Shown: in pieces, positions 1,685 through 23,892 of the stretch
Position numbering within the stretch: the stretch's first letter is position 1
Layout: the number at the start of each line of letters is the position of its first letter
Virus record (IMG/VR): IMGVR_UViG_3300027782_000302
Span: 1-27,204 of that record
Source of the DNA: a virus
Length of the DNA: 27,204 nucleotides
Strand: one strand, 5' to 3'
Notes under the pieces: model-generated
Databases searched by the model: none
Seen by the model: the letters and a program-made list of their open reading frames with translations, nothing else
What the model was told of the DNA's origin: nothing
Translations under genes and position numbers: made by a program

Positions 1685-1915
1685 TTATTTCTTTTCCATT
1701 AATTGCATTAACATTTGTTTGATTTCACTTAAATCATTTTTAGTTGATTGTAATTCCTCTTTAAGGATCTCATAGCCATCAATAGCTTTTTTGATCTTTA
1801 ATTTTTCTTCTTTTTCTCTTTTGTATTTATTTAATGCTTCTGTGTTCACATTTAATATAGCTTTAGAATTCGAATCACGAACCAAATTTGGCTCATCTGT
1901 AACTTTATAATACAT
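1685..1915 (-). CDS. Small predicted coiled-coil protein
   Basis: This is a 76-residue protein. Residues 1-25 (MYYKVTDEPNLVRDSNSKAI) form a distinct N-terminal segment. From about residue 26 to the end it is rich in Lys, Glu, Leu and Ile with heptad-like spacing (EILKEELQSTKNDLSEIKQM), consistent with one long coiled coil. Its ATG overlaps the TAA of the 2075-residue upstream gene by one base (TAATG), and its own TAA is directly followed by the ATG of the fibre gene, so it is probably translationally coupled to both. I have the impression that short proteins with a similar N-terminus occur in T4-like cyanophage structural regions, but I cannot confirm this. A role in fibre assembly, bridging or trimerisation is possible from its location. 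No function can be assigned from the sequence. Confidence 0.75.
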   Translation of the reverse strand: MYYKVTDEPNLVRDSNSKAILNVNTEALNKYKREKEEKLKIKKAIDGYEILKEELQSTKNDLSEIKQMLMQLMEKK

Positions 1916-4900
1916 TATACATTTCCGTCACTTAATGCAATTGCTCTATAATCTTGGATTCTAGGTACAATACTAGAATCAGAAGAAAGAAGAACAATTT
2001 TTATTGAAAATGATTTATATTCAGTAAACAAACTTCCATCACGATTTTTATAAGTTAATATTCCACTATCAAGATATGCTGTATAATCATAAGGATCCGT
2101 GGTTTGAGTTAATCTGTATTCGTATTCAATAAAATCATTAATATTGGCTTTACTGCTTACAAGAGCATTATCTGTTTGAAGCTGCGTCCAATGTTTACTG
2201 TCGAATAATTCTGGATCAGCCCCATTCCAAAATTTTGCGAATACAAACATATCGGTTCCTGCGGGCTTATATGCAGCAACATATACTTTAATATCCTGCG
2301 CCTCGTTACCATCAGCCAATACTACTTTCTTTGAAGTATATCGAGCCTTTGCGGTTCCTTGACCTGGAGTTTTTTCAGTTGCAAGAATAGTCAATGAAGT
2401 ATTAACATACTGTATATTTGCTTCAGAACCACTAGAAACACTAACATTTGCACCAGCAATAAAGACCGAAGGATCAACAGAAGTCTCGCCTCCGAGATAA
2501 TTGATTATTATGGTACCATGTGTAGTATTAGATGCATATGAATAAACAACATTACCTGTTTGCGATTCGCTTGGAGTTCCAGTTGTCTTTAATCTTACAG
2601 TTTGCCCAACATTAAATGTACCTGTTGAGCCATCATACTGTATTATTACTGCTTTATTTTTATCGGTGTTATAATCATAATTTACAATATTATGAGTTGT
2701 AATAATACCGCATTTAATTAAGTCGATTATTGGGCTTAATTTCCTTTCTGTTGTGCTAAATGTAGCGTTAATTGTTAAAGATTTGGCACCAGTGTTATAA
2801 CGATATTCATCGCTTTTACTTAGAACAACACGTTCTTTATCATAAAATGGAGCTTCTTGTGCATAAACTAAATTATAAAATTTATTATCTGCTCCGTAAG
2901 TATTAGAAAGACCCTTCAATGAGAAAGTCAAATCCGTAAGAGGAGCTGAAGAAATTGCAAATTTAGGCATTACTACATTATATTTTACAGTATTAATCGT
3001 TGAGATAGTAGCAGAAGCTTGCGATGTAGCAGCTAGTATTTTATGCGATTCAGTCAAATGAACACCAGAATTGGCTGTTGAATTGCCAATCATTATATAA
3101 CCATTTGAGTAATTTATGTTTTTAACATACCCATAAAAATCACCATTGCCACTTAACTTACCAATAGTAGAAACAGAATCGCTAAATGTTGGTAATCCTT
3201 CAACAGTAATTGTTTTGGCTACAGTATCCCTTCCGGATACTTTTCTTATTATGGTATTTGACCCAGTGCTGTTTCTTATATAGATCATATCATTAACTAA
3301 AATAGACGATGCGCTTGCAACATTTGTCATAGTTGTTGAAGTGCTAACAACTACTACTTGCGTATCAATAGTATTATTTGAAAAATAAACTTTTTCATTT
3401 GTTTCAAAAGTACCAATTAAATCATTAGCCGAAAGATATTCAGTATCGTCGTTTTCCAAATTTACATTTACTGGATTATTAAGTCTAGGACTGAAGTCAC
3501 AAATATTTAATCCAAATTTAATATCTTCTTTTTGATAAGGCGTCCAAGTTTTATTATCAGAAGATGTAAACATGACACCGACATCACTATTATTGAAAAT
3601 AGGAGTGTTACTGAAAATATCTACACCACCCTGTTCGGCAACCCAAATAGCATAATCTGGGCTTGCGCCATCGGGTAAAACACAAATCGCATAATCTTTT
3701 TTATTCTCAACGAAAACAGGAGCATCGAATACGAAAGTTGTTCTTTTATCAGGCGATGCATTTGAAGAAATATTAACCGAAGAAGGTTTAAGGTAAGAAG
3801 AAGAAAAAGGTAAAACTTTAAATCCTGGGAACCCGTTAAACATTTCTCTTATTTCTACACGAATACCACGCACTGCATCTTTTTTGAAGAACCAAAGATC
3901 AAGAGATTTTAAAAATATTCCTGCAATATTGTCAGGCTCGTTTACTTTAAAAGACTGAATAATAGGATCAGGGTTTGGGTTATCAGTTGTTATTGTAAAA
4001 TTTCTAGTTACTTCATTTGTCATTATAACTGATTTTTTAGCAATACCTCTAGTAACAGATAACTGTCCAGAGGTTGTATTTAAAGTTACATTTTCTTTAG
4101 TGTAAGATAAATTGGTACCAAAGAATGTAGAAGAAGCTTCAGATTGTATAAAATCTGTTCCTTGATCTAAATTAATAACATCCACAAGCCTGAATAATCT
4201 CTCACCTGCATAAAAAGTTTTTGCAGGAAGATCAAAATATCCATAAATTTCACCAGTCGCGTCGGCTTGTAAAACTGAAGTTGTTTCAAGAGTTTGGCCA
4301 AAATTTACAAACTTCTTACAGTACTGTGTTATATCTGTTTCGTCAAAGAATGCATATAAAATAGAATTAGGTTTCATACCTGTTGCGTGAAACTGGATTT
4401 TTTGATCGTTAATAAATGGCTGAAGGGCAACAGACTGTACAATATCGCCAAAATCATACTTAGTGTTTTTTGACTCTGATAGAGATAGTTTTTTTGTTCC
4501 TGCTTCTTGTTTAGATTCTGACGTTACTGTCTGTTTAGTAGTGTAATCTGTATCTGTTGTACCCCAACCTGCTCCAACTCCTTCTCCGGCTCTTTGACCA
4601 GTTACTGTAGTAATAGGATTGGTGGTATTGAGAATTACCTTGTCTACTTCTACATATGTACCGATAACTGTACCTAATGCATCAGCAATAGCAGCAAAAT
4701 TAGAATAAAGGTCAAGATTAATATTTAAACCTGGATTATCTTTAAAGGTTGGAGTCCAATCACCTTCTGGGAATAATTTAATATGTCCATTATAAACATA
4801 TGTAACGTCTTGCGAACAGTTTCTATACTTACTTGCAAAAGGTTGTGAAATATAATTAATAGTAGATAAGTCAGGGTAATCTAGGGAAATTAAACGACCG

Positions 4901-7900
4901 TTAGTTGATAATCTTGTACCAGTTGTTGTTTTATAATTTAAATCTACTCTAATTTCTTGAACCATAGGTCTTGCTTCAGTAGCACTATAATCTATAGCAA
5001 TTCTATATTGAGGATCTGTAACGTTACCGATATCATGACCTCTCATAGGATCTACTAGAAGACCATACTGAAATCTATTCCCGCCAGTTCCGTTATCAAT
5101 TAATAGAGTTTTTGTTGATAGTTCTAGAGTATTTAATGTTGTATAATACTCAAGATTTTCAATTCTCTTATCAAGAGCTGAAATATCTCTCATAGTATAT
5201 CTTCTGTTCTTATAGTAAGTTATATCTGAAGATAAATCGGCTCTTCCGCTTGATAGAGCTTCAGAAGGAGGTAGAGATGGGTAAGGCGGAACTTTAATCA
5301 TAGCTAAAGTCATCATCGTTGCGATATCGCCAGGCGGTATTGGGTTTTCGTCAGGTGAACCCTCAACAACTTTTACGTTACCAAATGAATCTAAACCAAC
5401 TTTATCATATCTACCAACATAATATTCTAAATCTGCTTCGAAAGAAGAATCAGGAACCGGAACATATTTAAGAAGAGGTCCATCAAATACTAAAGCAGTA
5501 TTGGTTGCTGGATTTGTTGTTGCGAATGAAATACTAGTATTATAGACGGCTGTATTAGCCATTTGTACTCTAAAATCGATTGTATTTCTTAAGTCATATT
5601 GACCAGATGTAGACGAATTATATAATGGTATATCTTGAGTAAGAATTGTATTTGCAGTTATCCCTGTATCGTCGATAGGATATGAGTCTACAGAAAAATA
5701 CCCAGCGCCTGTTGTAAAATCAGCCAAAAATGCATCAAATTGTACTACTATTTTTCTACTAGCAGGAATAGTAACTCCTGTTTTTTTACTAATATAAGAT
5801 AGACCATAAAATGCATCATTTTGACCATTATCTAAAATAAATGAAGAAGTTTGGTCTGTCATGTTTGCAACATCATAACCAGAGTCTGTACCTACGTATA
5901 CTTTTTTAACTCTATATACATCAGGAATACCAAGGCACCATGGGCCAATATTCTTTTTTGTTGCGGTTGATGTATCAATTTTAACTAATAAATCTTTAAA
6001 TAACTTTTTCTTTAAAGGAACTGCTTTTGATCTTCTAACATTATAAATCGCTTCTGCAGTAAAACTATCACTAAAGCTTCTATTTAAAGTTAAATTTGCT
6101 GACTTTTGATTTTCAGAAATAGTAATAGTCGCATTAGGTAGAACAGAAGAACCAATTTGCTCACCAGCAACAATATATAATGCTAAAAAAGTCCCAGTTC
6201 CGGTTTGGGTGCTACCAAGAGTTGTAGTTAAGGTTATTTGTGTATCTGAATTTACCTCTAAAATTCTTTTATATATAGGGGTATTAGAAACATTAGCAAT
6301 TCTTATCAAATTACCATTTGCAAATTCAGTTGTAAAAAATGTACCTGTTCCGGTTATAACTGCTGATCCTGAACTACCAGTTATATAACCAGCTACATTA
6401 GCAGCACTTACTCCTGCAGAATCATTAGTACAAGTGATTATAAAATCTCTTTCTTGTATATTATTGAGATCTCTATTTGCGGTATACGGTAAAAAATTAT
6501 TACCGCCCGTAGTATCCTGAACAGGGATAGAAGCTTTGCCAATATTTGATATTTCAATTGCAGTTTTAGCTTTAAAATCAAATTGATTTTTATTTAAATT
6601 TGTAAAACTGAATAGAGTTTTAATAGCTTTTTGAGCATATGGGAAAGTTAATGTTTGTAAAGTTGTATCCTTAAGAACACATTTACCAAATTCAAGAGCA
6701 GGATCCGCATAACCTTCTTTAGTCGAACCATTTGTTGCATAAATGCTTTTTACTGATGAAAAATTAGAACAAATAATATTTGTGAGATACATTCTATAAA
6801 TGCAACTTGCAGTTCCTGGAACTCCAGAATCGTATTCTATACCAATAATATTGGCAGTACCAATTTCCGAACCTCCTGGGCTTAAATCTCTTGTTCTATC
6901 CCCTGGTGTTCTACCGCTTATTGAAGTCGTTACTGCGCTTCTTAATGAAACTTTTTGAAAAGAAGTTGGGTCGAAAATACCAGAAAATTCATTAACAAAA
7001 ATATAACTACCCATCGAAGCAGTAGTAGTTTGTGTATCGATAGTTTTAGTATCTGTACCACGGCGAATAGAACTGATTAATTTACCAATAGTTTCAACTC
7101 TATAACCATTTACATAGGCTAATCCTTTTTCTATTTCTAGTTTTAATTCATCAGCAACAATATCACCGTTTGTATCATATTTTGTCGCCAAACGAACAAA
7201 AAATGGATCAATTATATAATTGCCACTTTCGTCGAATGTACGTTTTGCTAATTGTTTTCCTAAATTAGAATAAGAAGGGTCTGTTCTAACAATAGAAGGC
7301 TGACCTTCTGCAAAGTCGGCGATTGCAAAAAAGCTTGTACTTGTAGTGGTGTCAAATGTTTCTCTTGAAGTAAGAACTGGAGTAAGTTTTAATCTATGTG
7401 CACCTGGAGCTGAGTAATTCGGAGCTCCAGAAGCATTATCAAGAAGTGCTGTGTTTGATTCTGGGGTATCTATAGTTTCGATAGTCGTATAACCGATAGA
7501 AACTTTATCTGGGAAAGAATCGTATTTAGAAAGAATATAACTCTGCGGTTCCGCTCTAGTGAAGAACCCCTTTTGGAAAATTACACCCTCTTGAGCATGA
7601 ACAATATATCCGACCCCAGTTGGCGCAGAAACGCCACTTATAGTTGTATTCGCAATAACAACGTTACCAACTGGGTTACCAGAAACAGTATAAAGAGTTA
7701 GTTGCTCTCCTGCAACAAAGAATTTTTCACCATTATCGCCAGCCTGGGTATATCTAATGTATAACGTGTTTAGGTCAGGGGCTTTAGCATTACTACCTGG
7801 ATACGTATTAAGAATAATTGCTGAAATATTAGCAGAGTTAATTACTGTTAATCCAAGAAACTCATTGACATTTCCGAAAACTGAACCATTAGCATATTCG

Positions 7901-8142
7901 TCAATAATTTTTACATATGGAATATTACTTTCGAAAGAAAGCTGACACCCCTCTACAACAGAACCTTCAGTAAATATTTGACGACCAAATTTCGCAATCT
8001 GATCCTGCTGAATAGATTGTAACTCATTAAGTTCTCTTGTTTGAACAGCTACGGCTGGTCTAAAGAGAATTTGATGATACCCACTATCTGTGTTAAAAGT
8101 ATCAAAGTACGGACTACGAGATAGGTTGGTATCTAAAGCCAT
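1915..8142 (-). CDS. Giant DUF4815-type baseplate/tail structural protein
   Basis: This is a 2075-residue protein. Residues about 5-65 carry the N-terminal signature of the DUF4815 phage tail family: RSPYFDTFN, then ILFRPAVAVQTRELNELQSI and FGRQIF. Further typical segments lie near residue 1255 (KPNSILYAFFDETDITQYC) and near 1395-1530 (QSFKVNEPDNIAGIFLKSLD, then WFFKKD, VLPFSSSYL and AIWVAEQGG), a beta-rich stretch seen in large marine phage tail proteins. Residues about 1560-1728 hold a module also present in the gp7-like protein. A strong ribosome binding site (AGAGGAAATAATG) lies in the 8-base gap after the gp8-like gene. DUF4815 proteins occur in virion structural clusters. A peripheral baseplate or fibre-network role is inferred from the neighbours. 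There is no clear T4 counterpart, and no transmembrane segment or catalytic motif was seen. Confidence 0.85.
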   Translation of the reverse strand: MALDTNLSRSPYFDTFNTDSGYHQILFRPAVAVQTRELNELQSIQQDQIAKFGRQIFTEGSVVEGCQLSFESNIPYVKIIDEYANGSVFGNVNEFLGLTVINSANISAIILNTYPGSNAKAPDLNTLYIRYTQAGDNGEKFFVAGEQLTLYTVSGNPVGNVVIANTTISGVSAPTGVGYIVHAQEGVIFQKGFFTRAEPQSYILSKYDSFPDKVSIGYTTIETIDTPESNTALLDNASGAPNYSAPGAHRLKLTPVLTSRETFDTTTSTSFFAIADFAEGQPSIVRTDPSYSNLGKQLAKRTFDESGNYIIDPFFVRLATKYDTNGDIVADELKLEIEKGLAYVNGYRVETIGKLISSIRRGTDTKTIDTQTTTASMGSYIFVNEFSGIFDPTSFQKVSLRSAVTTSISGRTPGDRTRDLSPGGSEIGTANIIGIEYDSGVPGTASCIYRMYLTNIICSNFSSVKSIYATNGSTKEGYADPALEFGKCVLKDTTLQTLTFPYAQKAIKTLFSFTNLNKNQFDFKAKTAIEISNIGKASIPVQDTTGGNNFLPYTANRDLNNIQERDFIITCTNDSAGVSAANVAGYITGSSGSAVITGTGTFFTTEFANGNLIRIANVSNTPIYKRILEVNSDTQITLTTTLGSTQTGTGTFLALYIVAGEQIGSSVLPNATITISENQKSANLTLNRSFSDSFTAEAIYNVRRSKAVPLKKKLFKDLLVKIDTSTATKKNIGPWCLGIPDVYRVKKVYVGTDSGYDVANMTDQTSSFILDNGQNDAFYGLSYISKKTGVTIPASRKIVVQFDAFLADFTTGAGYFSVDSYPIDDTGITANTILTQDIPLYNSSTSGQYDLRNTIDFRVQMANTAVYNTSISFATTNPATNTALVFDGPLLKYVPVPDSSFEADLEYYVGRYDKVGLDSFGNVKVVEGSPDENPIPPGDIATMMTLAMIKVPPYPSLPPSEALSSGRADLSSDITYYKNRRYTMRDISALDKRIENLEYYTTLNTLELSTKTLLIDNGTGGNRFQYGLLVDPMRGHDIGNVTDPQYRIAIDYSATEARPMVQEIRVDLNYKTTTGTRLSTNGRLISLDYPDLSTINYISQPFASKYRNCSQDVTYVYNGHIKLFPEGDWTPTFKDNPGLNINLDLYSNFAAIADALGTVIGTYVEVDKVILNTTNPITTVTGQRAGEGVGAGWGTTDTDYTTKQTVTSESKQEAGTKKLSLSESKNTKYDFGDIVQSVALQPFINDQKIQFHATGMKPNSILYAFFDETDITQYCKKFVNFGQTLETTSVLQADATGEIYGYFDLPAKTFYAGERLFRLVDVINLDQGTDFIQSEASSTFFGTNLSYTKENVTLNTTSGQLSVTRGIAKKSVIMTNEVTRNFTITTDNPNPDPIIQSFKVNEPDNIAGIFLKSLDLWFFKKDAVRGIRVEIREMFNGFPGFKVLPFSSSYLKPSSVNISSNASPDKRTTFVFDAPVFVENKKDYAICVLPDGASPDYAIWVAEQGGVDIFSNTPIFNNSDVGVMFTSSDNKTWTPYQKEDIKFGLNICDFSPRLNNPVNVNLENDDTEYLSANDLIGTFETNEKVYFSNNTIDTQVVVVSTSTTMTNVASASSILVNDMIYIRNSTGSNTIIRKVSGRDTVAKTITVEGLPTFSDSVSTIGKLSGNGDFYGYVKNINYSNGYIMIGNSTANSGVHLTESHKILAATSQASATISTINTVKYNVVMPKFAISSAPLTDLTFSLKGLSNTYGADNKFYNLVYAQEAPFYDKERVVLSKSDEYRYNTGAKSLTINATFSTTERKLSPIIDLIKCGIITTHNIVNYDYNTDKNKAVIIQYDGSTGTFNVGQTVRLKTTGTPSESQTGNVVYSYASNTTHGTIIINYLGGETSVDPSVFIAGANVSVSSGSEANIQYVNTSLTILATEKTPGQGTAKARYTSKKVVLADGNEAQDIKVYVAAYKPAGTDMFVFAKFWNGADPELFDSKHWTQLQTDNALVSSKANINDFIEYEYRLTQTTDPYDYTAYLDSGILTYKNRDGSLFTEYKSFSIKIVLLSSDSSIVPRIQDYRAIALSDGNV
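2959..3468 (-). repeat. Shared module, copy in DUF4815 protein
   Basis: This stretch, about 170 residues, starts near VNLENDDTEYLSANDLIGTF and ends near VKYNVVMPKF. It aligns by eye with a segment of the gp7-like protein (17325-18158). Matching landmarks are EKVYFSNN, IYIRN, GNSTANSGVH, SHKILAATSQASATIS and VKYNVVMPKF. Confidence 0.7.
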
Positions 8143-8150
8143 TATTTCCT

Positions 8151-11100
8151 CTAAAATTTAATAATTAATTTAAGCTGTTCATTAGACGAAGGATCTTTGT
8201 CGAATTTACTTATATTATCATGATAAAGCACCTTACCGCTATATTTAACCAAATCTGGATACACAATAGAATCAGGTAAAGAAGTATTACCGTATGTACC
8301 AGAAGTAACCCCCCACAAAACGTTGTTTCCTATTCTAAATTTACCAAGATAAGGGGTGGTATCGTTATTGTTTATATGGTCTACGTCTGCTAATACTAAT
8401 ACAGGATATACATTATTTATCACAGTTGATTTAGTTCCTGTTGAATTTTCTATAGTATCAGAAGGATTAAATGCTTTATTTGTAAAATCATCAAATCCTT
8501 CAATAGTAACAGATGTAAGTTTTATCATTTTATTTGCTGTATTCACCGAAGTAATCAAAGCAGTAGCATTTGTATCAAGGTTAATTATCTTTTCACCAGC
8601 AATAAAGTTTACTTCTGTTAGATATTCAATATCCAATTCATCATTTGTACTGATAATTTGACCAGTTGCATATGTATCAGATTGATATACATATTCATAC
8701 TTTTGATATGGGTCAGAATTACCAGAAAGAGTTATTCTGGCAGTTTGATTAAACTTTTTACCAAATGAAAGAGAAGAATCTTTTTCGCCATTTGCTGTTA
8801 AAATTTTAGTAATTTGAGCATGAGATTCTGTTCTTGGTTCGTAAATAAAATCACCGACCGAGAAAGAACCAAGTACGTCTGTAAGTCTAATCTTAGTATT
8901 CTTTGCATTTAAATTTGTAACATTCAATTTAAGCTGATGAACTTGTGGCGTAATAAAAATAGAATGTTCTTCTGCGGGGTTAGTTACTCTTGTATCTACT
9001 ATATTAACATTTGCTCCACCGATTGTTTTAGAAAGAGCAAAACCAGAAAGAGTATAGATGTAATGTACTTCGCCTTCTGTTTCAATAACTTCATCTATAT
9101 TGACGTTTGCACCACCCTTTGTTTCTGAAAGAGCAAAAGATGTTGAATCGACGTAAGAAACATAATAATAAGTGTCTGATGTAAGACCACCAATAGGTGT
9201 TTGAAGAGGAGCTACACTATAATAAATTTTATCATTTAAATCTAATTTATCATCAGCGTTACTTAACATTATTGTATTTGCTGCGGAGTCAACAAACTCA
9301 GTATTTGCAACTACTGGGTATCTATTTGAATTATTAGCATGAGAAACATAATAATATGTTGATCCTGTTAGACCATCTATTGCTGTATTATTGGTCGGAA
9401 CTGTATAATAAACAATATCACCAATATCAAATTTAGCTGAAATGTTATCCAAATAAATTAAATCTTTTGAAGAATCGAATCCATCTGTATTTGCATAAAT
9501 TGTAAATGTGCTTGGTGTTGTAATTTTTGATTCTGTAATTGGTATAATTGCGCCTTCTAACGTAGCAGAGAGAGCAATTGAAGACGAATTAACAAACGCT
9601 ACATAATAATCAAAATTATTTACTAGACCATCAATAGCAGTGCCGCCAGCAGGAACAATGTAATTTACAATATCATTAACTTTATATATTGTATTCGCTA
9701 ACTCCATCTTAATAGTATCAAAATTATTATCAAGATTAATTTTATTGTTATTAACATATCTTAGATAATGATCTTCTTGTTCTGGTGATTCAGATGGATA
9801 AATGTTTATAAGCGCCCCACCCTGTTCTTCTGAAAGATCAAATCCAGAAGAGTTAGCAGTACGAATATAATAGAAACTATTATTACTTAACCCACTAATA
9901 GCGCCAAAACTATCTACTGGTGTATAGTAAAGAACTTTATCGCCTACGCTAAAATAAATATTAGCATTTTGAATTTCAATACGAGCAGTTTCTGGATCTA
10001 TAGAAGAAGCATCAAAAGTTCTGGCGGTATCAATACCAATAGGATTTTGAGAAGAATATGTATTTGCAACTATATTTCTATAGATTACAACTTCTCCGGT
10101 GTCCATGAATACCTGATTAATTTTTCCAGTTCCTCCTGGAATTTCTTCAGATACATTTTCTAAATCGGAAGCTAATGTAAAATATTTGATTTGAGTATTT
10201 GTAGCTTGTGCATTTGCACCTGAAAGCCAACCATAAATTGTAGCTTCTTGATTTTCTAAATCATCTGGATCTGCTACAAATGTTCCTCTAACGCTCTTCA
10301 ATTCAATAGTTGTAGTATTTGAGGAAACAATAATACCTGCGGAATTGGTTCCGGGCTGGACTAAAATTTCGTTATCGGCAAAATAAATTGAATTCCAGTC
10401 ATCGTACTTTAATGTAACTCTATCAAAATTATCAACTTCGAAAATAGCGTCATTTATAAATGGGTTTTTAATAATACCTATTTTTCTATAAGAACCATAT
10501 GTTGGGAAAAAGAACGATTCGTTAATTGTTGTATCGAATTTCTTTGAAACACCAGAATAAAATGCTCCTAGTTCAGAATACGCATCAAAACCATGTCCTC
10601 TAATTGGGGAAACAGAAGCTTCAAAAGACGCACCATGACCATATAGAGTATTGCTAGAAACTGAAACATTTGCTCTTGTATAATTTTGACCATGATTAAT
10701 TAATTCAACGGCAGTGATTTTTCTTGTTGGGTTTCTATCGCTAAGATCAATAGTGCAAAAAGCGAGAGCGCCATTACCATCACCATCAATATTAACCCTT
10801 GGGCCAATTACATATTCAGTTGCATCATTTGGAGAAGAGTATTTTGAAATAATTTTTCCGTTTGCTGTTGGTACACCATCAGCAGTTGTAACAAAAATAG
10901 TACCACCAGCCGAGAACCCACCATATTGTGTTTGTACGGTTATATTTGGATTCGTATCAAGGGAAACAATTCTAGCTTTAATCTTAGAAGTTGTTCCATA
11001 AAGAAAAGATGGGCGAGAATTTTCATTAACTGGGATAAAATTACTTCCTAGTACATCAGAAAGAATTACAGTAAAATTATTTGTGAAAGAAACTGTACCA

Positions 11101-13559
11101 TTTGTAAATAGATTGTTGTTAGCATTATCAACAACAGATAAACTTTCTCCAACTAGGAAACTCTGGTCAACAGGATGAATATCGGCGAATGTTACGACTG
11201 CCGAGTTTAAGTTTACATAAGTTATTGATCCGAGCGAACTACTTCTATTATAAGAATCAATAGAAATAGCTGTTGGGATAGAATAAATTTTCTTATTGTC
11301 GATACCTTGTTCGAAAGGAGCGTTAACAAACATATATGGAAAAACGGTTAATGTGTGATCATTTTGAGTAAACTGTACTGTGTGAACTTCACCCGCCCCT
11401 GTTCTATCTTCTGTTAAATTTATATTTGCGCCATTATAACTTGAAGAAAGAGCAAATGAAGAAGAATTAACAAAAGAAATATAATATGTACTACCATTAA
11501 CGAGTTGCCCAGATGGGGTTGTTTTTATAGCAGTTCCTCCATCTGTTGAGTAAATAACCTTATAGTTTTTCTCATAAAAAGTATTAGCATTTGTTAATTG
11601 TATAACATTATTTGTAACGTCAACGCCAGTCGTATTCGCTGTAATATTTTTAACAGTATGAACGTCTCCATTTAATCTTCTATCTTCTAAAGATATATTA
11701 GCAGATAATCCTGCTTCTAAACTATCAGTTTCAGCAAGCGCAAAAGCTGTTGTATTAGCATACGAAACATAATAATAAGAATTACCTACCAAACTTCCTA
11801 ATGGTATACTATTTGTTGGTACAGTATAATAAACTTTATCATGAACGCTGAACATTGTATTTGCTCGAGCCATCAAGAAAACATTTGCGTCTGCATTTGC
11901 ACCAATCGTATTAGCAAAAACGTTTCTATTTACGACTGTATACTTGAGAGTGTGCGCCTCACCAGGAGTTTCTCTATCTTCTGTTAAGTTTATATTTGCG
12001 CCATTATATGTTGTTGAGATGGCGATATGAGTAGAATCAACATATGAAACATAGAAAGATGCATTATTAGCTAGTCTTGTTCTAACGACGCCATTAGGGT
12101 CTGTATATGAAGCCTTTATTGCGGTGTTATTAGTAGGAACTATGTACTTTACATAATCGTTCAAACGAAAATATGTATTAGCGTTTGAAATTTTAATTTT
12201 ATTGTTTATAACATCAACACCAAAAGTGTTTGCAGTAGCGGCTCTTAGAAAATAATTAGGATCGGCAATTCTTGTAATTCTGCGAATATTTTTATAGTCT
12301 TCATTACCTACTTGAATAAAAGAACCAACACTAAAATCGTCTTGGAATTTAGTTACGAATCCAGTAAATTCTTGTGAAAAATCAGTAGTTTTTGACCAAC
12401 CACTATTGGCTATTATTTCATATGTAAGTCTGCCTGTATACTCAATGGCTTTATTAGAATCATCAATAACGTCTACCAATCCGTTTTTTTGAACTGGAGA
12501 AGAAACAGTATCAATTAGTGGGTAATCAACATTAAAATCAATTTCTGCATTAGTTTCTAGTCTCAATACAGATGTATTTGATGTGACGATTGTACCAGAT
12601 GCACCCGTATCTGATTGTATTAGTGTATCGCCAACATTATAAAAACCAACATCGTAAATGTATTTGATATTGTATATGTATTGTGTTACAAGATCGCCAA
12701 TGGTAAAAACGCCGTTTAGATCTTTAAGCTTTAAATTTTCATAATAATTGAATGGGGGGCTAACAGAAACTGTTTTGTATATACCGCTTGATGTAGTAAT
12801 TTCTCTAACTTGACCGCCACCAAAACCAGCCTTCAAATAAATTGAAGAATCTTTATAATGATCATCATGTGGAGAAGCACTATATGCCAACTGGACTACT
12901 TGAGAGCTAATGAAATTATTAAGAAACCCAGTTTCGAAAACTTGATAATTTTCACCGCCATTTATAAGTGTTATAGAATCAATTGTACCATTTACAGAGT
13001 TTGTAATAACATCGTTATTTGGCGTTACTGGTATATAATCTTTTGTTTGAAATTTATTGTACTGACTTGGATCGCAAGTATACATATATTTCCAAACATA
13101 ATTATCATATGTTCTGAATGTACCGCTTGTTTGGGTAATAGTTGGTTTCACAACTGATGGTACACCGAATGGGTAGTTTGGAGTACGACCGTTATCAATA
13201 CATTTATATACTTCGTTTGTGTCGGTAACAACGTAAAAATTCTTACTGTAAATATCAGGGTCGTTATTATTGTAGCGAGCGTAAATCGTATTATTCGCCC
13301 AGTTATATCTTTTTACCATTGATGTTACGTCAGAAGACTCTATCAATTTACCATATACTAAATCTTTATATGTGCTTTGCTCAACTTGTGCAAGCGAGTT
13401 ATTTGCAACAGGTACTTGAGTTTCGTCAACGTTTCCGTCCCCGTCTCTCCATGGCTCCGCCTTACCAACAAAAAAATAGTAAGAATTCTCGCTATCCTTG
13501 ATTGAATTAATAAAGTTATTAACCTGATCAAGCTTTTGATTTATTGTTAAAACTGCCAT
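8151..13559 (-). CDS. Baseplate wedge protein gp8-like, with very large insert
   Basis: This is an 1802-residue protein, against about 334 in T4 gp8. Both ends match T4 gp8 as I remember it. Residues 27-37 read YYFFVGKAEPW (T4: FITFGRSEPW), 82-87 VKRYNW (T4: PRRDW), 118-124 VYKCIDN (T4: VYRCLD) and 152-160 DNYVWKYMY (T4: DGYVWEYLF). The last 32 residues (YSGKVLYHDN to LKLIIKF) match T4 HSGEMIYMEN to INILFTF. About 1500 residues are inserted between these parts, including two arrays of a 90-100-residue repeat (residues about 440-738 and 1172-1541). gp8 is a wedge component that binds gp7, gp10 and gp6 in T4. A late promoter lies 30 bases upstream. The ribosome binding site is modest (AAGAG). 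No nearby downstream start preserves the gp8 N-terminus. Confidence 0.85.
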   Translation of the reverse strand: MAVLTINQKLDQVNNFINSIKDSENSYYFFVGKAEPWRDGDGNVDETQVPVANNSLAQVEQSTYKDLVYGKLIESSDVTSMVKRYNWANNTIYARYNNNDPDIYSKNFYVVTDTNEVYKCIDNGRTPNYPFGVPSVVKPTITQTSGTFRTYDNYVWKYMYTCDPSQYNKFQTKDYIPVTPNNDVITNSVNGTIDSITLINGGENYQVFETGFLNNFISSQVVQLAYSASPHDDHYKDSSIYLKAGFGGGQVREITTSSGIYKTVSVSPPFNYYENLKLKDLNGVFTIGDLVTQYIYNIKYIYDVGFYNVGDTLIQSDTGASGTIVTSNTSVLRLETNAEIDFNVDYPLIDTVSSPVQKNGLVDVIDDSNKAIEYTGRLTYEIIANSGWSKTTDFSQEFTGFVTKFQDDFSVGSFIQVGNEDYKNIRRITRIADPNYFLRAATANTFGVDVINNKIKISNANTYFRLNDYVKYIVPTNNTAIKASYTDPNGVVRTRLANNASFYVSYVDSTHIAISTTYNGANINLTEDRETPGEAHTLKYTVVNRNVFANTIGANADANVFLMARANTMFSVHDKVYYTVPTNSIPLGSLVGNSYYYVSYANTTAFALAETDSLEAGLSANISLEDRRLNGDVHTVKNITANTTGVDVTNNVIQLTNANTFYEKNYKVIYSTDGGTAIKTTPSGQLVNGSTYYISFVNSSSFALSSSYNGANINLTEDRTGAGEVHTVQFTQNDHTLTVFPYMFVNAPFEQGIDNKKIYSIPTAISIDSYNRSSSLGSITYVNLNSAVVTFADIHPVDQSFLVGESLSVVDNANNNLFTNGTVSFTNNFTVILSDVLGSNFIPVNENSRPSFLYGTTSKIKARIVSLDTNPNITVQTQYGGFSAGGTIFVTTADGVPTANGKIISKYSSPNDATEYVIGPRVNIDGDGNGALAFCTIDLSDRNPTRKITAVELINHGQNYTRANVSVSSNTLYGHGASFEASVSPIRGHGFDAYSELGAFYSGVSKKFDTTINESFFFPTYGSYRKIGIIKNPFINDAIFEVDNFDRVTLKYDDWNSIYFADNEILVQPGTNSAGIIVSSNTTTIELKSVRGTFVADPDDLENQEATIYGWLSGANAQATNTQIKYFTLASDLENVSEEIPGGTGKINQVFMDTGEVVIYRNIVANTYSSQNPIGIDTARTFDASSIDPETARIEIQNANIYFSVGDKVLYYTPVDSFGAISGLSNNSFYYIRTANSSGFDLSEEQGGALINIYPSESPEQEDHYLRYVNNNKINLDNNFDTIKMELANTIYKVNDIVNYIVPAGGTAIDGLVNNFDYYVAFVNSSSIALSATLEGAIIPITESKITTPSTFTIYANTDGFDSSKDLIYLDNISAKFDIGDIVYYTVPTNNTAIDGLTGSTYYYVSHANNSNRYPVVANTEFVDSAANTIMLSNADDKLDLNDKIYYSVAPLQTPIGGLTSDTYYYVSYVDSTSFALSETKGGANVNIDEVIETEGEVHYIYTLSGFALSKTIGGANVNIVDTRVTNPAEEHSIFITPQVHQLKLNVTNLNAKNTKIRLTDVLGSFSVGDFIYEPRTESHAQITKILTANGEKDSSLSFGKKFNQTARITLSGNSDPYQKYEYVYQSDTYATGQIISTNDELDIEYLTEVNFIAGEKIINLDTNATALITSVNTANKMIKLTSVTIEGFDDFTNKAFNPSDTIENSTGTKSTVINNVYPVLVLADVDHINNNDTTPYLGKFRIGNNVLWGVTSGTYGNTSLPDSIVYPDLVKYSGKVLYHDNISKFDKDPSSNEQLKLIIKF
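8950..10044 (-). repeat. Second array of the 90-100-residue repeat in gp8-like protein
   Basis: Units start near 10044, 9755, 9497 (truncated), 9312 and 9052 (partial). The consensus is a hydrophobic strand, then NAN.., a GDKVYY-type strand, P.NNTAI.GL, S.YYYVSYV.S, FALS.T.GGANVNI and E.H. The unit starting at 9497 stops at SHANNSNRYPVV and lacks its second half. The last partial unit repeats only the second half (GFALSKTIGGANVNI), 93 bases after the same motif in the preceding unit. Confidence 0.85.
11365..12236 (-). repeat. First array of the 90-100-residue repeat in gp8-like protein
   Basis: Three consecutive units start near 12236, 11935 and 11650. The outer two both contain GANINLTEDR and share almost identical DNA over about 36 bases (11402-11438 and 11972-12008). 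The middle unit is more diverged (SANISLEDRRLNGDVHTV). Confidence 0.85.
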
Positions 13560-13589: not shown

Positions 13590-13604
13590 TATTTATATGA
13601 AAAT
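13590..13604 (-). promoter_or_regulatory. T4-type late promoter upstream of gp8-like gene
   Basis: On the minus strand this reads ATTTTCATATAAATA, containing the exact T4 late promoter box TATAAATA (13590-13597). It is in the 44-base gap between the gp10-like fibre gene and the gp8-like gene, with the box ending 30 bases before the ATG at 13559. The same 15 bases occur upstream of the gp48-like gene. In T4 this box is read by host polymerase with the gp55 sigma-like factor. Confidence 0.8.
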
Positions 13605-14593
13605 TAGAAAACACCGCCCGTAAGTGCGACACGTTTCCAAGTATTTGTAGCAGTGCAAATATAGATATAATTTGCGTCCCAAGATATATTTCCAGCCACT
13701 CCAGTCGATGTGGACGTTTTTGTTTGCTGAGGAGAGCGCAATAAACCTTTATTATCAATAGTAAAAACAGTTTGTGAATTATTACTAAACTCGGCAACAA
13801 TTCCAGTATTTGAAAAAACTTTTAATCCTACTCCAGTATTTGAATAAAACTCGCCGCCGCTGCTGCTATTTGAAACACCTCTAATAGCAGTAGATGTATT
13901 AGAAACCCCTAAAATTGCGTTCGCACTATGGTTATTAACATGAAGTTTAGCCTGGGGAGTTGATATACCGATACCTAAGTTACCGTTGGCAACGTGATAT
14001 GCGGCTGTACCAATAGTAAAGGTGTTAGCGCGAGAACCAGTAGAATACGTAGAGTCATCAACTGAAATACCCCAAGCCCCAGAAGCACCAGCACCTGTTA
14101 AAGTTGGCGCATAAGTATTAAAATTATTTACTGTAATTGCCTTATAACCTTTAATATTTAAATCTGCAGCTGGTAAAACATACGAACCGTCTTGAAAACC
14201 AATATATTTCGTTCCACCATCAAAATATAATTTACCAGAAGTGTTCATATCACCATTAACATCTAATGGGAAAGTTGGTGAATTTTTACCAATACCAACA
14301 TAACCATCTTTGTTAACAATAAATGAAGTTACATCTGGGTTTTCACTATCCTCAACAACAAGAGAGTTTCCTGTTCCAGTTTGTGTAATTCTAACCGCAT
14401 CGTATGATAGATCAGAAACAACATTTAATCTAGCAGAAGGCGTGGGTGTACCAATACCGACATTTTTCCCTAATGGAACAATAGCGTTATAAAATTCAGT
14501 AAAATTAGAATTTATTTTATCCATAGAGGTACGGAGAGGATCACCTGTACCATCATCTGGTTCAATTCCAATATTAATTGTTTGTTTAGACAT
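13604..14593 (-). CDS. Short fibre with T4 gp10-like N-terminal anchor
   Basis: This is a 329-residue protein. Residues 5-35 (TINIGIEPDDGTGDPLR, then DKINSNFTEFY) closely match the N-terminus of T4 gp10 as remembered (NINIGNVVDDGTGDYLR, then KINENFDELY). In T4 this part trimerises and docks on gp7. Three motifs of the form GIGxxxPxxxLxV follow at residues 45-58, 99-112 and 206-219, which is typical of phage fibre and adhesin shafts. The C-terminus (NISWDANYIYICTATNTWKR) is a small domain common at the ends of fibre-like proteins. There is no intramolecular chaperone. The gene follows the gp7-like gene with two bases between stop and start and a GGGGAAAT ribosome binding site. The likely role is a trimeric peripheral baseplate fibre replacing T4 gp10 and gp12 functions. 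The anchor is well supported and the rest is inferred. Confidence 0.75.
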   Translation of the reverse strand: MSKQTINIGIEPDDGTGDPLRTSMDKINSNFTEFYNAIVPLGKNVGIGTPTPSARLNVVSDLSYDAVRITQTGTGNSLVVEDSENPDVTSFIVNKDGYVGIGKNSPTFPLDVNGDMNTSGKLYFDGGTKYIGFQDGSYVLPAADLNIKGYKAITVNNFNTYAPTLTGAGASGAWGISVDDSTYSTGSRANTFTIGTAAYHVANGNLGIGISTPQAKLHVNNHSANAILGVSNTSTAIRGVSNSSSGGEFYSNTGVGLKVFSNTGIVAEFSNNSQTVFTIDNKGLLRSPQQTKTSTSTGVAGNISWDANYIYICTATNTWKRVALTGGVF

Positions 14594-14595
14594 TT

Positions 14596-17500
14596 TTAAA
14601 TTTCCCCGTTAATTAAAGCTTTTTTATCTGTGTCTGAAGTTATTGTTGTTCTACTTGAAATAACCTTCGAATTGTCTACTGTTAAGTATTTGTAGACTGG
14701 GGGTTGTATTTCGGTTGTAACAAAAATTTCCTTATTTAAGCTACTGAAAATAACTTCTGCATTTTCTTGTTCTAATTCGTTCTTATTTACAAATCTTCCG
14801 AATAACTTCATTCCAGAAGGGTGTACTAAATCTTTTACATATTTTTCATACGTATTTAACATTCTAGAAGCAATGATCTCGTATGAAAATTTCTGGTAAT
14901 AGTAACTATCTTCAAGATAAATCTGATCGCTCAAAAATCCTTTATTATCTTTCCAGTAGCCTTTACTCTTACCGCCAAGGTCAACTACTGTTGTCCCGAT
15001 AATACCATATGGATTATTTTCGTTTGTAAGAGCTACTTGTTGGTCTCTTTCGTAACCATAGCCACTATCAACGATTTCAATAGCAGTAACAATACCGCCA
15101 GCGTAACCAGCCTTGGCTGAAACGTTCGCATTGAAACCTTTATACCCTCCATTTTTACCAACTTCTCTTAGTTCGTAAATTAATGGTTCGATAATTATAA
15201 CTTTAGGATCTTCTCCATAACCTTCACCTGTATTAATATTTTTGAGTCTGGCGATATCGCCTACTTCCTTATCAACATAAGTTAATGCATTTTCAATAGT
15301 TGTATCAAGGTTTTCTCTATCGTTATACGGAGCTACTGTAACTTTGGGGAAATCATAATGAGTCAATCTATTAGTCTTTTCAATTATTCCCTGTGCTTTA
15401 TCAAAGTAAATTTCATATTTGGTTCCAGGATGATAAGGGTCTGACCCATCATAAGGTAAAACTGCATAATCTGCAATATGTTCTGGGTCGTATTCAATAC
15501 CACAACCAATAAGAGGTGTTTTTCTAAAGCTTTGGTAAATGTTACCTGTTCCAGTTAAATTCAAATAATTTGAAGAACTTGCTGAAGCTAATGCAGGAGA
15601 CATAGCAAGTTTAAAATAATTATCATCAACACGAATAACACCGTATGGCGGATCAATCAATGGAAAAAGCGCATCGCCCTTTTCGTCTTCTAGTTCGTGT
15701 TCTGTACCATCATTGTAAGTAATCTTTCCTGTAACTATTTGATCGACTTCACTTTTACTTACATAATGAATAGTATCGCCTGTTATGTACCCATGATTTG
15801 GCATATGTATTGTATTGTCGGTAATGTTTACATTAGCAGGGTTTAAAAATACAGATGGTGTTTCGGATAAATGAATTTGATGTTGTAAAAGAACTTCTTC
15901 GAAAGTATCTACGAATTTAGTATAATAAATTTTATTTGTGTCAGTGTCAGGGTCGATTTCTAATAAGCCATATGGTAAAGACGGAATTGGATATTCTTGA
16001 TTATCATATACTCTAAAATAAACTGGGGTATTGATCGGTGGAACAGAAAAAGCTGGCAAATAAACTATTGTAGGAGTTCCAATTGCTATTCCTAATCCGT
16101 CATTAGGCGATTCAGGATTATATTGTACGAATCTATGACCAATTGATTTTAAGGTTTCGCCAACAATAGGATACCCAATAACAGTTGGTGAAACTTCTAT
16201 TTCTTGAATTTCAATTATATTTCCGATGACCGATGTACATTCACCGCCAGATAAACTGATAACTTTATCATCAAGAATAGCATCAATATGATAAGATGAA
16301 CCTGCTGAAAATTCGTTTCCGGAACTAGTTAAAGAAGTTCCAGGAAAAAGATAGCGTGATAAATTTTCTTGTCTGAAAGTTTGTAAATCATTACCAGAAT
16401 CAATTAGGGTGAAAGTAACCCCATAGATAGCATTATCTTTTGATATAGCAAGTTTAATATTACTAATATCCACTACATTAGCATAATACACACCATCTAA
16501 TAGATATCCATATTCATCAGTTCTATAATTTACTTCATCGATTTGTATTGGAGTTCCACCATTAGCTTTATAATATATTGGGTCGCCAGAAAGATAACCA
16601 TGGTTTAATATATAAATTTCACTTGTGCCAGGATCAATATCAACATCAAGTTCGGCGACTGTTACTGGGACTGGTCCCGACAATAAAGGATGATTAATTC
16701 CGTTGTCTAAAATTAAAGGGTCTGTCGACGTAACTTCTATATATGTGCCATCAGTGTTTATTACTGTTAAATTATTAATTGATAAACTTGTATTAAACAT
16801 TAATTCAGTATTAGTCATTAATGTTTCTACTGTTGTTATTCCTGCATCAAGTTGCTTGACGCCTACAACATTTTCCATAACTAATATGTCGCCAGAACTA
16901 AAAGTTCCAACTACATCAGAAACATAAATCTCGAACCCGCCGCCTACTTGAGCATCGCTTTCCATTTTTTCGTTAGCATAATCATCAATATGGTCTGTAT
17001 TGAGTCTGAAAATTTCTTTATTTACAATACTACCAACTTTAAACGTAGCTCCAGTACCGCCTGGATTTTGATAAGAATAGCCAGAATTAGTAATGTAATA
17101 TAAAACAGGATTATCAATAACAGGAACTTGCGAATCTGCTGTTGTGTTTAAATCAAGATCATAATCAGTAAATAGTTCAAAAGCATAAGAGTTTACAATT
17201 TTTACATGGTATCCATAATTTTCGATATTAAGATTTTCAACACCTTGTATATAATCCAATCTTACGGTGTCTCTGTTTTCTAAATTATGCCCTTTTTCAG
17301 AAACAATTATATTAGAACTATTTTTTACAAAAACAGGTTTTACAGTAATAGCATATCTAACATCATCAGAAGAGACAATTACCGTCGAAGCTTGAGAAAT
17401 AGAAGCAATTATTTTATGATCTGTTGTTAGGTAATCTATTGGGAGCGTTACAACTTCTGGGATCACGCCAACTGCAGGAACAACTACTTTATGAACAGAA

Positions 17501-19029
17501 GAATTAGAAATAACAACGTTGCCAGTTATGTAATCAAAATCTCTAATAACTCCAGTACCTGTTATGATACCAGAACTAGCATTGGCGCTAGACCAAGAAG
17601 GTTTCTCGGTAAGAACAAAAGAATTATCATTGTCAACAGAACTAACAGTTCTAACTATCACATTAGAATTTAAATTTGTATTCTTAAAAATTTGATCTTC
17701 GTTACCAGGATTAGTCAGATTTAAAGCTGTACCAATTGTAGCATCATCTTTTGTCAATGCAAGTTTTATGTTATCAGGATCAATAACTATAGCATAATAT
17801 GGCTCATTATCAACTAAATCGTTTGTTCCAGATGTTGACAAATATTCTATTGACGGACTACCGATACCCAAATAGTATATTTTGTCCTCATTTGAATAAT
17901 TATGATTTTCAATATTAATTTGATTGGTAGTAATGTTTACCAAGCTATTTGAAACAGATACCTGATTATTACTTTCAAAATAAACTAAATCTCCTGCTGT
18001 TACGGTAATACTAAAAGTACTATTACCAGTAACTGTATTACTTGCAAGGTCAAGAACTGCGCCAGATATTTTATTATTAGCAATCAAATTATTCGAAAAA
18101 TAAATTGGTTCATAAAGACTAAAAGTACCCTCAGTTTTTTCAAGATCTACATGAACAAAACTATTGAGAGTTATAGAATCTATTTCTCTTGTTTCGCCAA
18201 CAACGTTTACGACAGCATCGAGAGAAAACCCAGAACCACCATCTAATAGTGTAAACTGAACTTGACCATTTCTATCAGTTGTAGAAACGACTCTTGCAAC
18301 ACCACCAGCACCACTATTATTAACGTTTACTAAATCGCCAACATTATAATTAATACCACCATCAGTAATACCAATAGAAGAAAGAGACCCAATAATAATT
18401 GGTCCATTTTCAATAGTAATTTCTGGAACAGCTTCGCAAAGTATCTTCTCACCAAATTTAAAATTCCCTTTAACATCATTTAAGATCAAAACATTAATAT
18501 ATTTGTTGTTTACAACTTTTATGAAATAATTATCAACTACAGCTGACGCAAAAGTCCCAGTAGAATAAATTTTATGACCGATTGTATTTACAAAATAAGG
18601 GCAATCTGTAAGTTCGATATATTTCGGAACAACCCAATCGCCATCTGAAAGTTTAAATATATCTTTACCTGGGGTGTATATTTCGATATCTTCATTAAAC
18701 AATATCTTAAACAATAAAGCATAAGAACGATCCGAACCCTTAGAACGATATAGATCTAAAATATGCTTTATCAATAAAGGTTTATCTGCAAGTATATTTT
18801 CTGGAATTGAATTGATATATTTGTTTTTAAAATATACTAAGAAGTTATTTAACGTAGTATCAAGATCTCTATACTCTAAAAGCGAGCGACTTTCGTGTAA
18901 TATCTCGCCTTGAGATTCTAACCAAGAATAATACGCCTTAACGAATTCGATAAACTGTGGACCCTCTTCTTGGTAAAACTGAGGGAACTGTGATTCGATA
19001 AATGGAGAAATTAATTTTTCTATTGACAT
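14596..19029 (-). CDS. Baseplate wedge protein gp7-like, with very large insert
   Basis: This is a 1477-residue protein. Residues about 20-125 (PQFIEFVKAYYSWLES, then LDLYRSKGSDRSYALLFKIL and FNEDIEIYTPG) match the later part of T4 gp7 as remembered (FCEAYIQYLSDG, FYSTKGIEASYKFLFKVLYN). Residues about 1370-1420 (SYYYQKFSYEI, LVHPSGMKLFGRFV) match a T4 gp7 segment (SYYVMKI, FVHPVGFGFI) that follows soon after in T4. More than 1200 residues lie between, including three clear repeat domains and one module shared with the DUF4815 protein. The long N-terminal region of T4 gp7 is absent. The start overlaps the gp6 stop by one base (TAATG) and the ribosome binding site is weak, suggesting translational coupling. 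gp7 is a central wedge organiser contacting gp6, gp8, gp10, gp25 and gp53 in T4. Confidence 0.8.
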   Translation of the reverse strand: MSIEKLISPFIESQFPQFYQEEGPQFIEFVKAYYSWLESQGEILHESRSLLEYRDLDTTLNNFLVYFKNKYINSIPENILADKPLLIKHILDLYRSKGSDRSYALLFKILFNEDIEIYTPGKDIFKLSDGDWVVPKYIELTDCPYFVNTIGHKIYSTGTFASAVVDNYFIKVVNNKYINVLILNDVKGNFKFGEKILCEAVPEITIENGPIIIGSLSSIGITDGGINYNVGDLVNVNNSGAGGVARVVSTTDRNGQVQFTLLDGGSGFSLDAVVNVVGETREIDSITLNSFVHVDLEKTEGTFSLYEPIYFSNNLIANNKISGAVLDLASNTVTGNSTFSITVTAGDLVYFESNNQVSVSNSLVNITTNQINIENHNYSNEDKIYYLGIGSPSIEYLSTSGTNDLVDNEPYYAIVIDPDNIKLALTKDDATIGTALNLTNPGNEDQIFKNTNLNSNVIVRTVSSVDNDNSFVLTEKPSWSSANASSGIITGTGVIRDFDYITGNVVISNSSVHKVVVPAVGVIPEVVTLPIDYLTTDHKIIASISQASTVIVSSDDVRYAITVKPVFVKNSSNIIVSEKGHNLENRDTVRLDYIQGVENLNIENYGYHVKIVNSYAFELFTDYDLDLNTTADSQVPVIDNPVLYYITNSGYSYQNPGGTGATFKVGSIVNKEIFRLNTDHIDDYANEKMESDAQVGGGFEIYVSDVVGTFSSGDILVMENVVGVKQLDAGITTVETLMTNTELMFNTSLSINNLTVINTDGTYIEVTSTDPLILDNGINHPLLSGPVPVTVAELDVDIDPGTSEIYILNHGYLSGDPIYYKANGGTPIQIDEVNYRTDEYGYLLDGVYYANVVDISNIKLAISKDNAIYGVTFTLIDSGNDLQTFRQENLSRYLFPGTSLTSSGNEFSAGSSYHIDAILDDKVISLSGGECTSVIGNIIEIQEIEVSPTVIGYPIVGETLKSIGHRFVQYNPESPNDGLGIAIGTPTIVYLPAFSVPPINTPVYFRVYDNQEYPIPSLPYGLLEIDPDTDTNKIYYTKFVDTFEEVLLQHQIHLSETPSVFLNPANVNITDNTIHMPNHGYITGDTIHYVSKSEVDQIVTGKITYNDGTEHELEDEKGDALFPLIDPPYGVIRVDDNYFKLAMSPALASASSSNYLNLTGTGNIYQSFRKTPLIGCGIEYDPEHIADYAVLPYDGSDPYHPGTKYEIYFDKAQGIIEKTNRLTHYDFPKVTVAPYNDRENLDTTIENALTYVDKEVGDIARLKNINTGEGYGEDPKVIIIEPLIYELREVGKNGGYKGFNANVSAKAGYAGGIVTAIEIVDSGYGYERDQQVALTNENNPYGIIGTTVVDLGGKSKGYWKDNKGFLSDQIYLEDSYYYQKFSYEIIASRMLNTYEKYVKDLVHPSGMKLFGRFVNKNELEQENAEVIFSSLNKEIFVTTEIQPPVYKYLTVDNSKVISSRTTITSDTDKKALINGEI
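15508..15846 (-). repeat. Repeat domain, third copy in gp7-like protein
   Basis: This encodes NPANVNITDNTIHMPNHGYI, then TGDTIHYV, FKLAMS and a closing QSFRKTPLIG. It has the same order of landmarks as the copies at 16350-16656 and 17670-17955. Confidence 0.75.
16350..16656 (-). repeat. Repeat domain, second copy in gp7-like protein
   Basis: Landmarks in order are SEIYILNHGYLSGDPIYYK, LLDGVYYANVVDISNIKLAI, SKDNAIYG and a closing QTFRQENLSRY. Confidence 0.75.
17325..18158 (-). repeat. Shared module, copy in gp7-like protein, interrupted by a repeat domain
   Basis: The module starts near VDLEKTEGTFSLYEPIYFSN and ends near VRYAITVKPVF. It matches the DUF4815 protein segment at 2959-3468 through YFSNN, SNSSVH, DHKIIASISQASTVIVSS and VRYAITVKPVF. 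The repeat domain at 17670-17955 lies inside it. A diverged copy of the repeat domain seems to follow at about 17145-17325 (EKGHNLENRDTVRLDYI, then AFELFTDYD). Confidence 0.7.
17670..17955 (-). repeat. Repeat domain, first copy in gp7-like protein
   Basis: Landmarks in order are INIENHNYSNEDKIYYLG, LVDNEPYYAIVIDPDNIKLA, LTKDDATIG and a closing QIFKNTNLNSN. It resembles the repeat unit of the gp8-like protein (strand, GDKVYY, YYYVSYV, FALS). Confidence 0.75.
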
Positions 19030-23890: not shown

Positions 23891-23892
23891 TA

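Follow-up and report, generated by a model that had tools for sequence, protein, structure and literature searches.

Domain arrays inserted at two positions of the gp8 baseplate wedge protein in a freshwater-type relative of phage T4

The baseplate protein gp8 is usually regarded as a conserved structural component of the wedge, which raises the question of how an open reading frame (ORF) whose two ends resemble gp8 of phage T4 (334 aa) comes to encode 1802 aa, and what the additional sequence may do. The ORF lies in the window, the stretch of 27,204 nucleotides analysed here (positions 1 to 27,204 of IMG/VR virus record IMGVR_UViG_3300027782_000302), the source of which is a freshwater-type relative of phage T4.

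8151..13559, minus strand: gp8-type baseplate wedge protein, whole ORF, 1802 aa (phrog_438, E 2.5e-76)

Read on the minus strand, the interval 8151–13559 forms a single uninterrupted frame of 1802 codons, whereas its plus strand is full of stops. The PHROG search matched the protein to phrog_438 (baseplate wedge subunit, gp8). To avoid circularity, an independent gp8 profile was limited to 33 complete gp8s of at most 700 aa each, T4 included. This profile matched the 1802-aa protein in three collinear blocks, namely residues 2–271 (profile 3–273, 224 bits), residues 908–1133 (profile 274–465, 119 bits, E 3.5e-37), and residues 1752–1802 (profile 535–582, about 30–32 bits, E 7e-11 to 2.7e-10), and it had no match at E up to 10 in the reversed sequence or in 20 shuffles. 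In the middle block, T4 'FKAYLDSVYF...GFRQISIITNPL' aligned with 'HGFDAYSELGAFYSG...YRKIGIIKNPF' of the 1802-aa protein. An AlphaFold2 model of the unaltered residues 1–1100 (pLDDT 71.8, with both core blocks mostly at 70–95) matched T4 gp8 (1n7z) in Foldseek (E 5.6e-5, prob 1.00) and was superposed on it with Z 13.9 over 220 residues (rmsd 3.7, 22% identity, model range 1–1039), the first non-gp8 row being at Z 7.5. The C-terminal 41 residues lie outside this model and are assigned to gp8 by sequence. The likeness of both termini to T4 gp8, which the original prediction had drawn by eye, was thus borne out by profile (phrog_438; 224 bits with the short-gp8 profile at the N-terminus and 32 bits over the final 53 residues), alignment, and predicted fold, and the roughly fivefold enlargement relative to T4 was upheld. 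The 1802-aa ORF encodes a bona fide gp8 wedge protein of the baseplate that is intact and whose three-part core retains the T4 gp8 fold.

Several weaker likenesses were also recorded. PF25691 (BW3TFN baseplate wedge 3 component) matched only the C-terminal 54 residues, at 15.4 bits and below its cut-off of 27, suggesting distant kinship only. The 176-aa baseplate protein 9euf_b of Staphylococcus phage phi812 superposed on the model of residues 1–1100 with Z 6.4 (132 residues, 20% identity), a model-based hint that it may be a minimal gp8 relative outside the T4-type phages. Foldseek gave no trustworthy whole-chain match of a second gp8 model to the PDB (TM-scores <0.2).

The position of the conserved blocks decides where the additional sequence lies. 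A single insert of about 1500 residues between residues 230 and 1740 had been predicted; this reading is ruled out by the middle core block at residues 908–1133, and because this block survives between them, there are two insertion sites and a core in three pieces. By the block profiles, insert 1 comprises 703 aa and insert 2 comprises 701 aa, against 16 and 6 aa in the same two intervals of T4 gp8, where the insertion positions fall at residues ~226–243 and ~289–296. The domain arrays are inserted at two positions of the conserved gp8 core, as follows.

12924..13559, minus strand: gp8 core block 1, residues 1–212 (profile match reaching 271; fold match 1n7z)
12267..12923, minus strand: insert 1, proximal beta domains, residues 213–431, common to relatives of ~1100 aa (query residues 1–431 aligned to L057 1–400)
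11316..12266, minus strand: repeat block A, residues 432–748, missing in L062 (empty site; L062 residues 421/435 flank the gap)
10818..11315, minus strand: insert 1, distal part, residues 749–914, common to relatives
10374..10817, minus strand: gp8 core block 2 (middle), residues 915–1062 (profile match 908–1133, 119 bits)
10119..10373, minus strand: insert 2, proximal part, residues 1063–1147 (from alignment to relatives)
8892..10118, minus strand: repeat block B, residues 1148–1556, missing in L062 (828/845) and L057 (889/892), empty site
8277..8891, minus strand: insert 2, distal part, residues 1557–1761, common to relatives
8154..8276, minus strand: gp8 core block 3, the C-terminal 41 residues (30 bits, E 2.7e-10)

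Interval lengths measured across 63 complete gp8s indicated that both intervals grow at the same two places. The lengths of gp8 fell into grades of 334 (T4), 412–685, 1024–1340, and 1802–1847 aa. The two intervals measured about 0–145 and 30–240 aa in gp8s of 412–685 aa, roughly 360–680 and 270–330 aa in most gp8s of 1024–1340 aa, and 703–739 and 701–711 aa in the window and in its diverged full-length relative L043 (1847 aa). In the surrounding clade, a gp8 of about 1100–1300 aa is already standard, and the sampled isolates have 494–676 aa, compared to 334 aa in T4. The enlargement supposed in the original prediction is thus real but no one-off, the 1802-aa protein being one end of a graded size series (412–1847 aa among the relatives). 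The 1091-aa gp8 of L062 aligns on both sides of residues 432–748 and 1148–1556 and has only 13 and 16 residues there; it thus has empty sites for both repeat blocks. Single-protein searches with block A and block B recovered the closest relatives only; among 50,697 phage records, a nucleotide search with the gene gave no match and a protein search with repeat block B gave no match at E 1e-3, and the N-terminal core had no relative among 84,980 prokaryote genomes. The graded series suggests that plug-in domains serve to build the outer baseplate and to vary it between phages.

Part of each insert consists of homologous beta-rich units of ~90 aa, which stand atop an already enlarged gp8 of ~1090 aa. 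Where at least seven repeats had been predicted, self-comparison identified seven units, three in insert 1 and four in insert 2, with a best self-match of 1.6e-24.

11940..12245, minus strand: repeat unit A1, residues 439–540 (pLDDT 68–93 in most of the unit)
11649..11927, minus strand: repeat unit A2, residues 545–637 (poorly modelled, pLDDT <40; self-match to 638)
11370..11648, minus strand: repeat unit A3, residues 638–730 (poorly modelled, pLDDT about 50–66; self-match from 637)
9756..10028, minus strand: repeat unit B1, residues 1178–1268 (self-comparison)
9501..9755, minus strand: repeat unit B2, residues 1269–1353 (self-comparison)
9327..9500, minus strand: first half (B3) of unit B3/B5, residues 1354–1411
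9051..9320, minus strand: repeat unit B4, residues 1414–1503, nested within unit B3/B5
8940..9047, minus strand: second half (B5) of unit B3/B5, residues 1505–1540

When joined, B3 and B5 scored as a single unit with 85.8 bits, higher than any of 200 controls (best 79.2), indicating that B4 sits inside a split unit; the same nested layout was present in L043 and in L005, a relative with a diverged intact gp8. In the unit tree, which has few alignment columns and does not resolve the deep order, A1, A2, A3, and B1–B4 each clustered with their L005 and L043 counterparts. This unit-by-unit orthology implies that the arrays predate the split of the window phage, L005, and L043.

The kinship of the unit was sought in sequence and in structure. 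Among the six complete units, no Pfam family was matched at its curated cut-off, PF12195 (endosialidase beta-barrel) was not matched, and PF16190 (E1_FCCH) was not matched at E up to 10. A repeat unit had a weak match to the Ig-like family Kre9_KNH (E 0.09, 14 bits against a cut-off of 24.6), the fold rows for the unit favoured barrels in comparison with the Ig fold, and the repeat profile had only chance-level matches among PDB sequences. The predicted model of unit B4 was superposed on the beta-barrels of the phage endosialidases of phi92 (4hiz, Z 7.2) and K1F (1v0e, Z 6.3) over 71–73 residues, and EF-Tu-type domains reached Z 5–7. As all of these lie below Z 8, the level separating kinship from a common fold, the modelled barrel likeness of B4 may reflect no more than a shared fold. 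Endosialidase kinship was rejected at the sequence level, since hhalign gave the repeat unit and the K1F barrel a probability of 0.4%, with no sequence support, and PF12195 was not matched.

The repeats are under purifying selection and change several-fold faster than the core does. Identity to L043 was 48–72% in the repeats and 88–93% in the core blocks. The dN/dS ratios of the window against L043, rough estimates in that some dS exceed 1, were 0.06–0.09 in the three core blocks, 0.11–0.19 in the non-repeat insert, 0.13–0.27 in the A units, and 0.39–0.48 in B1–B4; against L005, the repeats were again faster, with the exception of A1. Across the whole gp8, dN/dS was 0.04–0.48 and everywhere <1, and purifying selection in all parts implies that all parts are translated and kept. 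On the whole, the repeats are the least constrained part of gp8.

The ~90-aa unit is not confined to the arrays. One or two copies were present in the gp8s of L007, L044, L050, L053, L055, and L061, and the gp7-like proteins of L020 and L069 carry the unit while their gp8s lack it. In L005, one copy interrupts a stretch of DUF4815 that is continuous in the window protein. A further copy occupies the C-terminal end of a fibre-like protein of 1019 aa (L120); others lie in a protein of 182 aa (L121, 1960–2514) between genes read by eye as portal- and prohead-protease-like, and, one copy each, in proteins of 279 and 316 aa (L122, 2632–3489; L123, 2416–3414). No copy was found in the genomes of T4, Cr30, and P-SSM7. 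Since proteins of the gp7-like, DUF4815, and fibre types and of the head region contain the unit in these relatives, it is a mobile domain. As separate observations, the L122 and L123 proteins have a common C-terminal motif, HAGWVLRTxGTGGRAGRxQYETLVAMGS, and the DUF4815 frame of L005 is broken by a frameshift, either real or an error of assembly, near 9862–9886 (within 9780–9960).

The nesting of one copy in another and the presence or absence of the unit in DUF4815 suggest insertion into loops, and the unit probably spreads since it can occupy a loop of another domain without breaking that domain. That it tolerates gp8 loops, DUF4815, and another unit as sites suggests closely spaced ends, which would account for the spread. 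A broader reading, which we put forward only tentatively, is that T4-type aquatic phages possess in this unit a hitherto undescribed mobile beta domain, which inserts into loops and spreads among wedge proteins (gp7, gp8, and DUF4815), fibres, head-region proteins, and even copies of itself, and that it would make gp8 a polyvalent host-adhesion ring.

The neighbouring genes follow the T4-type operon order of tube cap, gp53-like protein, hub protein, gp5 OB-fold ORF, two ORFs without a PHROG match, PAAR, gp25, and gp6, and thereafter the gp7-like protein (1477 aa), a gp9/10 N-terminal-type protein (329 aa), gp8, DUF4815 (2075 aa), and a fibre-like gene; gp8 starts 44 bases past the end of its upstream neighbour. 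Two of these genes are compared here with gp8.

14596..19029, minus strand: gp7-like wedge protein, 1477 aa (phrog_17744, E 2.8e-125)
1915..8142, minus strand: DUF4815 structural protein, 2075 aa, downstream neighbour of gp8, without the repeat copy of its L005 orthologue

Compared to a sister clade with gp8 of ~1200 aa, the gp7-like protein has 1477 aa in the window against 677–747 aa in most of the clade, and DUF4815 has 2075 aa against ~1500–1610 aa where it is complete in most of the clade; gp6, with 589 aa against ~606, is not enlarged. The enlargement hits the outer wedge and spares gp6. The gp7-like protein (14596–19029, minus strand) had a sub-threshold E1_FCCH match (17.7 bits against 29.5) and faint matches to the gp8 repeat profile. 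The gp9/gp10 N-terminal-type connector (13604–14593, minus strand, 329 aa) has a 1063-aa counterpart in L043 (3272–6460) and was not found at the corresponding place in most of the sister clade. The fibre-like gene (2–1684, minus strand), cut by the window end, is Asn/Thr-rich with tandem repeats of the 'TLANTLAVTGATT' type and had no PHROG match. The equivalent of T4 gp5 (21543–24204, minus strand) is apparently split.

23893–24204, minus strand: OB-fold ORF, 103 aa (phrog_430), matching the hub/lysozyme profile over its first ~100 positions only
22280–23890, minus strand: ORF without a PHROG match, 536 aa
21543–22280, minus strand: spike-like ORF without a PHROG match, 245 aa

In T4, gp8 is a dimer with two copies per wedge and twelve per baseplate, and it forms the upper part of the dome, touching gp10, gp7, and gp6, plus gp9 in the star state (PMC3004832). 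We infer, as a somewhat probable reading, that the domain arrays carried at two sites by the gp8 core project from it as an accessory host-contact layer. As T4 gp8 does, the core would dock in the wedge on gp7 and gp6, with twelve copies per baseplate, and each copy would thereby add ~1400 residues around the baseplate. The arrays would form a ring of small beta domains, the many weak glycan-type or surface contacts of which may hold the virion before the fibres commit. This reading is favoured because the repeats are the fastest part, because the unit also lies in a fibre, because the early changes that recurred in cyanophage S-PM2d during 500 days of co-culture with its host included a non-synonymous mutation in gp8 (PMC9910659), and, weakly, because of the modelled likeness of B4 to a barrel that in the K1F endosialidase has a polysialic-acid binding site (PMC12632334). 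However, relaxed constraint explains the speed of the repeats as well as host selection does, since dN/dS is <1 everywhere, and T4 gp8 sits slightly inwards (PMC3004832), which makes it uncertain that the inserts face outwards.

The arrays may instead be structural rather than adhesive, with gp7, gp8, and DUF4815 having grown together towards a larger or stiffer baseplate, or one docking extra fibres, and with the repeats as spacers or braces. The enlargement of the gp7-like protein and DUF4815 in the same lineage at constant gp6, the one-by-one orthology of the array units in three phages, as for a fixed architecture, and weak fold matches of the C-terminal part of gp8 to gp7 (Z 7.5) are consistent with this, but it is unusual for packed interfaces to be the least conserved part of a protein, as the repeats are in gp8, and the unit is also carried by fibre and head-region proteins that have no partner in common; we regard this reading as rather unlikely. 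Still less likely is near-neutral accretion, in which mobile beta domains enter loops in tolerant virion proteins through recombination and are kept because they do little harm, a course of events discussed for promiscuous Ig-like domains, with no specific function in gp8: although single units are present or absent in DUF4815, gp7-like proteins, and gp8, gp8 lengths are graded, and dN/dS is raised in the repeats, every unit is under purifying selection, all units are retained in three diverged phages, and the two repeat blocks cost about 2.2 kb of coding sequence per genome. Mis-assembly, or termini and insert as different proteins, is prompted by the very large size beside T4 and, although the product may be cleaved after translation, is highly improbable, being rejected on the same-length ORF in L004, the last 1025 codons in L006, the intact diverged copies in L043 and L005, the lack of internal stops, and the purifying selection across all parts.

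The graded series, the empty sites, and the reused unit allow testing of baseplate enlargement and of the wedge as a host-contact surface. They may also aid annotation, as the same modular domain is present in parts of other uncharacterised large proteins of aquatic phages.

Compared to known systems, T4 gp8 (1n7z, 5iv5; phrog_438) shares all three core blocks, the fold (Z 13.9), and the gene order gp6–gp7–gp8, but differs in length (334 versus 1802 aa), in having 16 and 6 residues at the insertion sites, and in lacking repeats. The gp8s of cyanophages, Caulobacter phage Cr30, and rhizobiophages (about 440–680 aa) share the core and the insertion sites, whereas their inserts are short (~0–145 and ~50–240 aa). 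Uncultured gp8s of 1024–1340 aa (L007, L009, L012, and L062) have much of the non-repeat insert sequence in common with the window but lack the block B array, and block A is missing or reduced to one or two units, as at the block A site of L007 and L061. The best predicted-structure matches of residues 900–1802 were BFVD A0A6J7WSY4 (889 aa, 'Baseplate wedge subunit') and A0A6J5M6G5 (1216 aa). The endosialidase beta-barrel (phi92 4hiz, K1F 1v0e) resembles the barrel in the predicted B4 model, although it has no sequence relation to the unit and the Z-scores are within the range of common arrangements. Promiscuous domains (e.g., Ig-like) of phage virion proteins and domain shuffling in tail proteins have been described (PMC10684548); the present unit is likewise a modular beta domain that recurs in several virion proteins and that one phage may have and a close relative lack, but it has no curated Pfam match and is arrayed inside a wedge core protein. 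Some neighbours of gp8 in cyanophages exceed even these sizes, as the 'baseplate wedge initiator' of ACG-2014f spans about 12.7 kb, and giant wedge proteins as such are thus not new. Already known, then, are gp8, large baseplate proteins of aquatic phages, and the predicted viral structures of 889 and 1216 aa; within the reach of our searches, what is new is the arrangement of inserts at two sites, the size series that includes empty sites, the nesting of one unit in another, and the recurrence of this unit in different virion proteins.
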